DNA of 43,204 bases from Dehalococcoidia bacterium. GTDB lineage: Bacteria > Chloroflexota > Dehalococcoidia > GIF9 > UBA5629. A program made the translations under genes and the position numbers. Below, piece after piece: positions 27,531-32,673 of this stretch. The stretch is from positions 1 through 43,204 of the forward strand of contig JAQUQM010000006.1 of assembly GCA_028716085.1 (NCBI GenBank), in the 5' to 3' direction. Numbering within the stretch: position 1 is the stretch's first letter; each line of letters opens with the position of its first letter. A model generated the notes under the pieces. The model made no database searches and had not been told where the DNA came from. It saw only the letters and a program-made list of their open reading frames with translations.

Positions 27531-27532
27531 TT

Positions 27533-27680
27533 AAATACCAAGTTCCAGGATCCAAATTCCAAACAATTGTTTTTTAAACTCTGAGTGCTATGTTCTAAAC
27601 CGTTTTTGAATTTTGAGTTTTGTAGTTGTTTGGAGTTTAGGATTTCGTGTTTAGAATTTTTATTGGATTATAATTGCTTT
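27533..27680. repeat. Degenerate heptamer-like inverted-repeat element (short copy)
   Basis: Left arm C/A-type units (ccaagttccaggatccaaattccaaacaa), right arm T/G-type units (ttttgagttttgtagttgtttggagtttaggatttcgtgtttagaat). Confidence 0.6.
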
Positions 27681-31477: not shown

Positions 31478-31757
31478 AATTACAAGCTCCAAAATCCAAG
31501 AACCAAATTCCAAACAATATTCCAAATTCTAAGCTCTAAACCCTAAACTCTAAACAAACCCGAATATTCAAACTCTAAACTCTAAATAAATCCAAAATAC
31601 AAATTACAAAAACCAAAACATTTTGAGCTTTGTGTTTTGAAATTGTTTAGGATTTAGGGTTTGGTATTTAGGATTTTATTAATTGGAATTTGTTTGGAGC
31701 TTGGAGCTTTAGTATTGGAGTTTGTTTAGCACTTAGGGTTTAGAGTTTGGGATTTTC
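31478..31757. repeat. Degenerate heptamer inverted-repeat element (long copy)
   Basis: Left arm (to ~31620) CYAAAYN-type 7-mers, e.g. ctctaaaccctaaactctaaac; right arm TTTRGRN-type 7-mers, e.g. tttaggatttagggtttggtatttagga. Strand bias flips at ~31620. Confidence 0.75.
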
Positions 31758-31761
31758 ACTA

Positions 31762-32673
31762 TTATAGATGATTATGTTTCCCGAAAAGCGCCTTCTCAAT
31801 CTCCCTGATTCTCTCCAATCCCTTGATCTCGCGGGGGAACAAGGGCAGCTCGGTGGTTTGCAAGCCGCAGTATTTCATCCGGATCAGCTCCAAATATTCC
31901 TTCTGCTGTGTGGCGCGCTCCTGCATAAAAGCCGAATCCGGCGACTTCACCACGTTATTAATGATGAGGCAGCTCACCTTGAATCCGAATTTGTGCATCT
32001 CTTCGAAAATACTATCGAGCTGATTAACAGCTAAGGCCTCGGGTATGGCTATGATATTGAAACCAACATTATTGCGCAGGAAAGAAACATCCAGTGCGGA
32101 AAGAGCTTCCCAGCGGCGGATGATATCCAGGATGGGCTCCCTGGTGCCCGACCCGGCCTTTAACCGGGTATAGATGCGCGGCGCTGCTTTGAGGTGTTTG
32201 CTGAGCATGGCGGGAGTGTGCAGCAGAGCCAGGGTCTGTCCCAGTGGAGCTGTATCCCACACGATGGCATCATAAGCATGGCTTTCTACAAGCTCGCGGA
32301 TATAGTCGACCATAAACTCCTCGGCGAGTCCCGGCAGCATGGACGACATGAAATCCACGAACTCGGGATAGCCGATGTCCACGAAGGACGAGAAAACCTG
32401 GAAAACATCCCTGCCGAATTTGCCGTCCCACATCTGCTGAACTTCCGCCGCTCCCAGCTCGCTGAAAAACAGGTTTTGTGTGACAGGGGTGGGTTTTACC
32501 CTGGGCTTGATCTCGAAAATGTGCTGCAGTGAAGGGGTCGCGTCGGTGGAGATTACCAGCGTCTTTTCCCCTTCCTGAGCGAAATGCAGGCCTGCCGCCG
32601 CAGCGCAGGTGGTCTTGCCCACACCGCCTTTGCCTGCAAAGACCGTGACCGCAGTTTCGGTTTTTCCCGGCAT
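31762..32673 (-). CDS. ArsA family ATPase (arsenite-pump/Get3-like)
   Basis: Deviant Walker A VFAGKGGVGKTTCAAA; YDAIVWDTAPLGQTLALL. ATG at 32673 preferred over the ORF start at 32826. Confidence 0.85.
   Translation of the reverse strand: MPGKTETAVTVFAGKGGVGKTTCAAAAGLHFAQEGEKTLVISTDATPSLQHIFEIKPRVKPTPVTQNLFFSELGAAEVQQMWDGKFGRDVFQVFSSFVDIGYPEFVDFMSSMLPGLAEEFMVDYIRELVESHAYDAIVWDTAPLGQTLALLHTPAMLSKHLKAAPRIYTRLKAGSGTREPILDIIRRWEALSALDVSFLRNNVGFNIIAIPEALAVNQLDSIFEEMHKFGFKVSCLIINNVVKSPDSAFMQERATQQKEYLELIRMKYCGLQTTELPLFPREIKGLERIREIEKALFGKHNHL

Follow-up and report, generated by a model that had tools for sequence, protein, structure and literature searches.

Dispersed heptamer repeats are known from bacteria but lack an explanation; those of cyanobacteria, the STRR heptanucleotide repeats, have a CCCCART-type unit. 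The S23/IVP four-helix-bundle proteins (PF05635/TIGR02436, named S23 or '23S rRNA-intervening-sequence protein') are common and without known function. Heptameric repeats described in Xanthomonas (GGGANTN) and Nostoc (GGGGAYT) were read as G-quadruplexes of unknown function, and those of Xanthomonas form 70–75 convergent (inverted) pairs per genome near the ends of open reading frames (ORFs) (Rehm et al., 2015; PMC4692102). The 23S rRNA intervening sequence (IVS) of Coxiella burnetii, described as a selfish, horizontally acquired element of 428 nt, carries an S23 ORF with tandem heptamers (GACAGAT) in variable number just before its start codon, and the S23 protein of Xanthomonas is described as a toroidal homopentamer (PMC4990558). 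Here we analyse an inverted heptamer-repeat element at positions 31478–31765 of a 43,204-nt stretch from a Dehalococcoidia bacterium (contig JAQUQM010000006.1; the whole stretch is called the window), which probably represents two gene-less miniatures of an S23/IVP mobile element, one nested in the other. We found no paper in the open-access literature that joins S23/four-helix-bundle genes with dispersed heptamer arrays. Linking the two gives testable roles to both, the heptamers as cis-acting ends and the protein as trans-acting factor of a miniature mobile element.

Like STRRs, the locus consists of degenerate heptamer arrays. CCCCAAT units flank a Planktothrix PF05635 gene (L270), and an identity of the two is a lead; unlike the window element, STRRs were reported as direct repeats with which no gene was known to be associated. 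The Coxiella IVS resembles the Dehalococcoidia elements in size (428 nt versus ∼450–470 bp for ORF-bearing copies), in its PF05635-family ORF, in heptamers directly upstream of that ORF and in hairpin potential. In contrast to the IVS, the Dehalococcoidia copies are intergenic instead of lying in rRNA, have arms of about five degenerate units on both sides and use the unit CYAARYN rather than GACAGAT, and the window copies lack the ORF. The Xanthomonas and Nostoc repeats, which mostly have four units, are likewise degenerate, dispersed, intergenic and near ORF ends, but their unit is different and no link to an S23 gene was drawn (PMC4692102). REPIN/RAYT systems and prokaryotic miniature inverted-repeat transposable elements (MITEs) are also short, non-autonomous, intergenic inverted repeats found near gene ends in both orientations; the window element differs in that its ends are heptamer arrays and that no RAYT or transposase association was found.

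Relatives with the same arms enclose an S23 gene

The tie between the heptamer arms and a four-helix-bundle ORF is well supported. In the related genome G019, one arm pair encloses an ORF of 120 aa, which the matching site of genome G020 does not have; the encoded protein belongs to TIGR02436 and PF05635 (E = 1e-21 and 3e-15 respectively) and matches PDB 2RLD, five chains of that sequence. Both arms, at near-fixed distances, are present at six of the 23 PF05635 loci in the family, each from a different genome; at a seventh (L259) the scan scored only one arm, but both are seen by inspection. The full-length relatives that share the arms are L253, L257, L258, L259, L263 and L264, with an ORF of 120 codons; L254 has a disrupted frame. 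All six intact arm-bracketed proteins tested fall into one clade (100/100 support). Remnants of the gene are also seen in miniatures: the ORF start ATGAC[CT][AG]AA lies just inside an arm in 6 of 36, versus 0.28 expected. Moreover, genomes with an ORF-bearing element hold more miniatures (p = 0.002).

The window feature has its heptamer-array ends in common with these ORF-bearing elements, and it is intergenic between two protein genes rather than inserted in 23S rRNA. No PF05635/TIGR02436 ORF was found in the window's own copies, and we therefore call the feature a derivative, not a full member of the S23/IVP elements. As in a MITE, its terminal inverted repeats are common to a coding parent; this parent encodes no recognised transposase.

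The full element, of ∼450–470 bp, comprises five C-strand heptamers, a 5′ leader, the 120-codon PF05635/TIGR02436 ORF, a 3′ trailer and five G-strand heptamers. Loss of the ORF by internal deletion, perhaps in every lineage, would leave ∼117 bp of inverted heptamer arms. We hypothesize that the S23 protein recognises the heptamers and that deleted copies can still be mobilised in trans; they would then have spread between genes, mainly to positions just downstream of 3′ ends. Movement may follow a route without an encoded transposase, e.g. through RNA, and any terminator effect would be a by-product.

Several observations weigh against this proposal. No mobilising enzyme was identified, and bracketing arrays could also arise from an ORF landing inside an older array. 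Two of the six ORF-start remnants are on the strand opposite to the assigned one (four are on it), and all come from other family lineages (G002, G003, G014, G018 and G025), not from the window's own copies. The host genome (G000; a draft of 2.46 Mb in 165 contigs, 96% complete) has the most miniatures yet no PF05635 match, and its copies would therefore be relics or need a factor that the genome has lost or that was not assembled. Many G019/G020 sites resemble eroded copies instead of clean presence and absence, and no clear target-site duplication was seen at the G019/G020 empty sites compared. In addition, gene calls came from a home-made finder.

Anatomy of the window feature

The preliminary description had placed the element in the gap between an ABC permease gene and a convergent ArsA-like gene. 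This gap, which the element fills, begins at the permease stop (31475) and ends with the final base of the ArsA-like ORF (31762); the coordinates and base composition given for the element were right (left half A73 C37 G4 T29; right half A29 C7 G38 T71). Positions 31478–31765 hold strong period-7 arrays of the unit C-Y-A-A-R-Y-N, with the C-strand on the left, which is nearly G-free, and the G-strand on the right, which is nearly C-free. The lack of a 7-bp autocorrelation peak, which that description had named as refuting, was not observed: the two halves peaked at lag 7, with z = 5.8 and 4.2, and at lag 14, with z = 4.1 and 4.0. When the window was scanned with a position weight matrix (PWM) of the unit, four arrays were found at the feature and a second copy elsewhere (Table 1), compared with one match in the whole reversed window. 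The inverted repeat described earlier is present, but not as one simple repeat: most likely, a core hairpin (∼31555–31678) is nested inside the arms of another copy (31482–31554 and 31690–31757).

Table 1. Parts of the heptamer element and its second copy, in window coordinates.
Feature	Position	Strand	Basis
Outer heptamer module (CCAAR-type units), outer interrupted copy	31482–31516	+	Repeat and PWM scans; module also in other copies
Left C/A-rich heptamer arm (CTAAAC-type units), outer copy	31520–31554	+	PWM array 31482–31556
Left heptamer arm, inner (core) miniature	31555–31588	+	PWM array 31561–31588; alignments A1, A2
Stem continuation and loop of core miniature; position of the four-helix-bundle ORF in full-length relatives	31589–31643		Alignment with other copies; ORF-bearing relatives
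Right T/G-rich heptamer arm, core miniature	31644–31678	-	PWM array
Right outer-module units, outer copy (TTGTTTGGAGCTTGGAGC)	31690–31720	-	Inverted repeat I2 with 31482–31517
Right T/G-rich heptamer arm, outer copy	31723–31757	-	PWM array
Second, more eroded element copy, downstream of a rubrerythrin-like gene	27531–27661		PWM arrays 27531–27565 (+) and 27627–27661 (-)

The element is a dispersed, polar, intergenic repeat

Uniqueness in the genome had been named as grounds for abandoning the idea of a repeat element; the host genome instead gave 58 blastn matches to the window element. Across the family, 20 of 30 genomes have matches, with copy numbers from 0 to 48. In 711 kb we counted 71 array clusters, versus 8 in the reversed control, and no arrays were called inside genes in the host stretches. 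Most arms are exactly 35 bp, or five heptamers, long (82 of 124 arrays). Arrays follow the order '+ then -' in ++, --, +- and -+ gaps alike, and one close reversed pair consists of parts of two adjacent elements. There are two arm types, making up a polar consensus that was inserted in both orientations (expectation–maximization log-likelihood -1143 versus -1164 ± 5.6 with shuffled partners). Growth by slippage of low-complexity, A/T-rich DNA without common origin would suit the degenerate units and variable loops, but not the fixed five-unit arms and their constant order, nor a core of ∼117 bp and a polar consensus common across genera, nor the few matches in the reversed control. Since the asymmetric core is shared, we regard this origin as refuted for practical purposes.

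Presence of the element is specific to lineages. Among 301 Chloroflexota genomes, 91 of which have PF05635 matches, the stem-junction pattern was abundant in G000 and G019 and sparse in a few other Dehalococcoidia; the rest had single, chance-like matches. G019 and G020 are ∼86% identical in DNA, and across other gaps the state of a copy ranges from present through eroded to absent; for a miniature there is at least one clean empty site (L090 2774–2886 versus L227 at 3550). Past the permease gene, the element of G019 is full and contains a nested CATTGCGAG palindrome, whereas G025 (L034) has a degenerate pair of ends and G020 a short remnant; no element was found there in G005. Together, the many dispersed copies in both orientations, their lineage-specific presence and the empty site in a sister genome support the non-autonomous repeat that had been listed among several possible roles.

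Used as query against plasmid and phage DNA, the element had no match, and a profile search of viral contigs confirmed no ORF. Two IMG/VR contigs from one sample (L243 4715–4737 and L244 344–366) contain the exact arm pattern; they are possibly host DNA or a related bacterium's prophage. Palindromic repeats, GTCATTGCGAG...CGCAATGACA and TCCCGAT...ATCGGGA, occur in loops of or beside heptamer elements (L109 5828–5993; L114, L115, L117 and others) and are nested insertions of another abundant repeat family. In one of two sister genomes, heptamer arms also enclose other small ORFs, which encode two similar membrane proteins of ∼70–76 aa and one protein of ∼100 aa (L095 9558–10001; L098 6272–6619; L206 5980–6487); these are possible passenger genes.

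Gene 3′ ends, folding and protein binding

Of the element ends, 45% are no more than 20 bp away from the 3′ end of a gene, whereas 13% are as close to a 5′ end (p = 7e-6). The excess in convergent gaps is weak (odds ratio 1.75, p = 0.15), too weak for the element of convergent gaps that was first envisaged, and divergent gaps are depleted (0.47, p = 0.03). Relative to co-directional genes, 10 elements are sense and 12 antisense, i.e. without bias. The hairpin potential suspected at the outset was confirmed for the window feature by RNA folding (z = -7.4; 0 of 200 shuffles equally good), and DNA folding was also strong (z = -4.9); strand asymmetry of folding is marginal (p = 0.03–0.05). The closeness to gene 3′ ends, the strong folding and the retention of the element past the permease gene in several genera might suggest that transcription from either side stops at a long irregular hairpin, or that the hairpin shields the 3′ ends of mRNAs, and that it persists for this reason. 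We consider this improbable. The feature has no site with a GC-rich stem followed by a T run, in agreement with the earlier remark that it is unlike a normal terminator. Copies occur in all gap types, divergent ones included, orientation is unrelated to gene direction, and beside the same gene in relatives the element is eroded or missing; adjacency to 3′ ends would also be expected if insertion spared promoters and coding sequence. The bidirectional terminator or RNA-stability element raised in the preliminary description thus fares poorly, and the mobile-element reading also accounts for why the feature resembled an odd terminator.

Nor has pairing been maintained by compensatory change. In oriented elements 77% of hairpin cells pair, but covariation is below that of 498 of 500 shuffles, which indicates that each arm is kept for its own motif and not for mutual complementarity; the anti-correlation of the arms arises because the elements are polar. 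A conserved RNA hairpin was rejected on these grounds and on RNAalifold results (-2.5 kcal/mol, no covariation), and Rfam returned no family at gathering score, only a sub-threshold plant miRNA match. Sense-strand 3′-UTR or Rho-rut signals belonging to each convergent gene were dropped, because array order and orientation are independent of gene direction.

Arms that keep their own motif while their pairing is not conserved, in dispersed and strictly intergenic copies, could be nucleoid- or regulator-binding arrays, the heptamers serving a chromosome-organising host protein unrelated to the four-helix-bundle gene; a nucleoid-protein site was also among the roles first listed. We give this little credence, less than the 3′-end function. 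In six or seven genomes the arms enclose one particular gene with fixed spacing, unit and protein clade go together, different units flank the homologues of this gene in other phyla, and copy number varies widely within the family.

Transposases and the route of movement

Short inverted ends, insertion in both orientations, nesting and gene-less copies would also be expected of a REPIN- or MITE-type repeat whose movement depends on an ordinary transposase (RAYT or DDE) from another locus, with the four-helix-bundle ORF as a passenger. The other small ORFs between arms in G019 and G020 fit such a repeat, as do Y1_Tnp genes in G000. However, G019, with 35 matches, has no Y1_Tnp gene, arms are found at no Y1_Tnp locus, and the association with PF05635 recurs across phyla with different units. 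We therefore judge this explanation unlikely, although it is the strongest of the alternatives. Assignment to the REPIN class was rejected in particular, there being no cognate Y1 transposase in G019 and no Y1 locus with arms. At L137 1300–2150 (G003:C2, ∼211 kb), a Y1_Tnp/RAYT-like gene lies between GTAGGGACAGACCTTCAGGTCTGTCC palindromes; this is likely a separate REP/RAYT pair.

S23 genes of other phyla often have their own heptamers

We also examined plasmid-borne PF05635 genes of Bacteroidota, Cyanobacteriota, Spirochaetota, Chloroflexota, Bacillota, Pseudomonadota and Gemmatimonadota. Over 41 loci from Dehalococcoidia and plasmids, both flanks showed an excess of period 7 (mean z = 2.7 and 2.8 versus -0.2; p = 1e-14 and 4e-17), which persisted against intergenic as well as coding controls (41–42 loci). 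Periods 6 and 8 gave minor signals, and no other period stood out on average. Upstream and downstream arrays were inverted relatives in 23 of the 41 loci (above the 95th percentile of cross-locus scores; p = 4e-18); some loci, e.g. L281 and L285, lack clear period-7 flanks, and the Bacillota locus L275 was judged by eye. The units vary by lineage (CCCCAAT, AAAATTC, GGGAGTA, GGGAACA, GGGTGTA and others), and repeat similarity tracks protein similarity weakly (Mantel r = 0.18, p = 0.0005; without the arm-sharing clade r = 0.10, p = 0.02).

S23 genes in at least seven phyla thus tend to be bracketed by heptamers of their own, and a single class of element may underlie several of the heptamer repeats that lack an explanation. 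More tentatively, and with less confidence than for the window feature itself, S23/IVP proteins may be the trans factor of widespread tiny mobile elements that spread without an encoded transposase. Each clade would read its own heptamer, possibly with one unit per subunit of the toroidal homopentamer on five-unit arms, a five-to-five match that we offer as a hypothesis. STRRs, the Xanthomonas GGGANTN pairs, the Dehalococcoidia hairpins and 23S rRNA IVSs could then be one phenomenon.

Some PF05635 genes, at L250 and L260, have arrays of period 9 (AACTCAACA) or 6 (TCTGAA) in their flanks in place of 7. On plasmids, four-helix-bundle genes were found between functionally linked genes (L269, L292, L282, L283, L275 and L277), namely cas2/cas1 (twice), cas10/cmr3, cas6/cas4, hsdS/hsdR and nrdB/nrdA.
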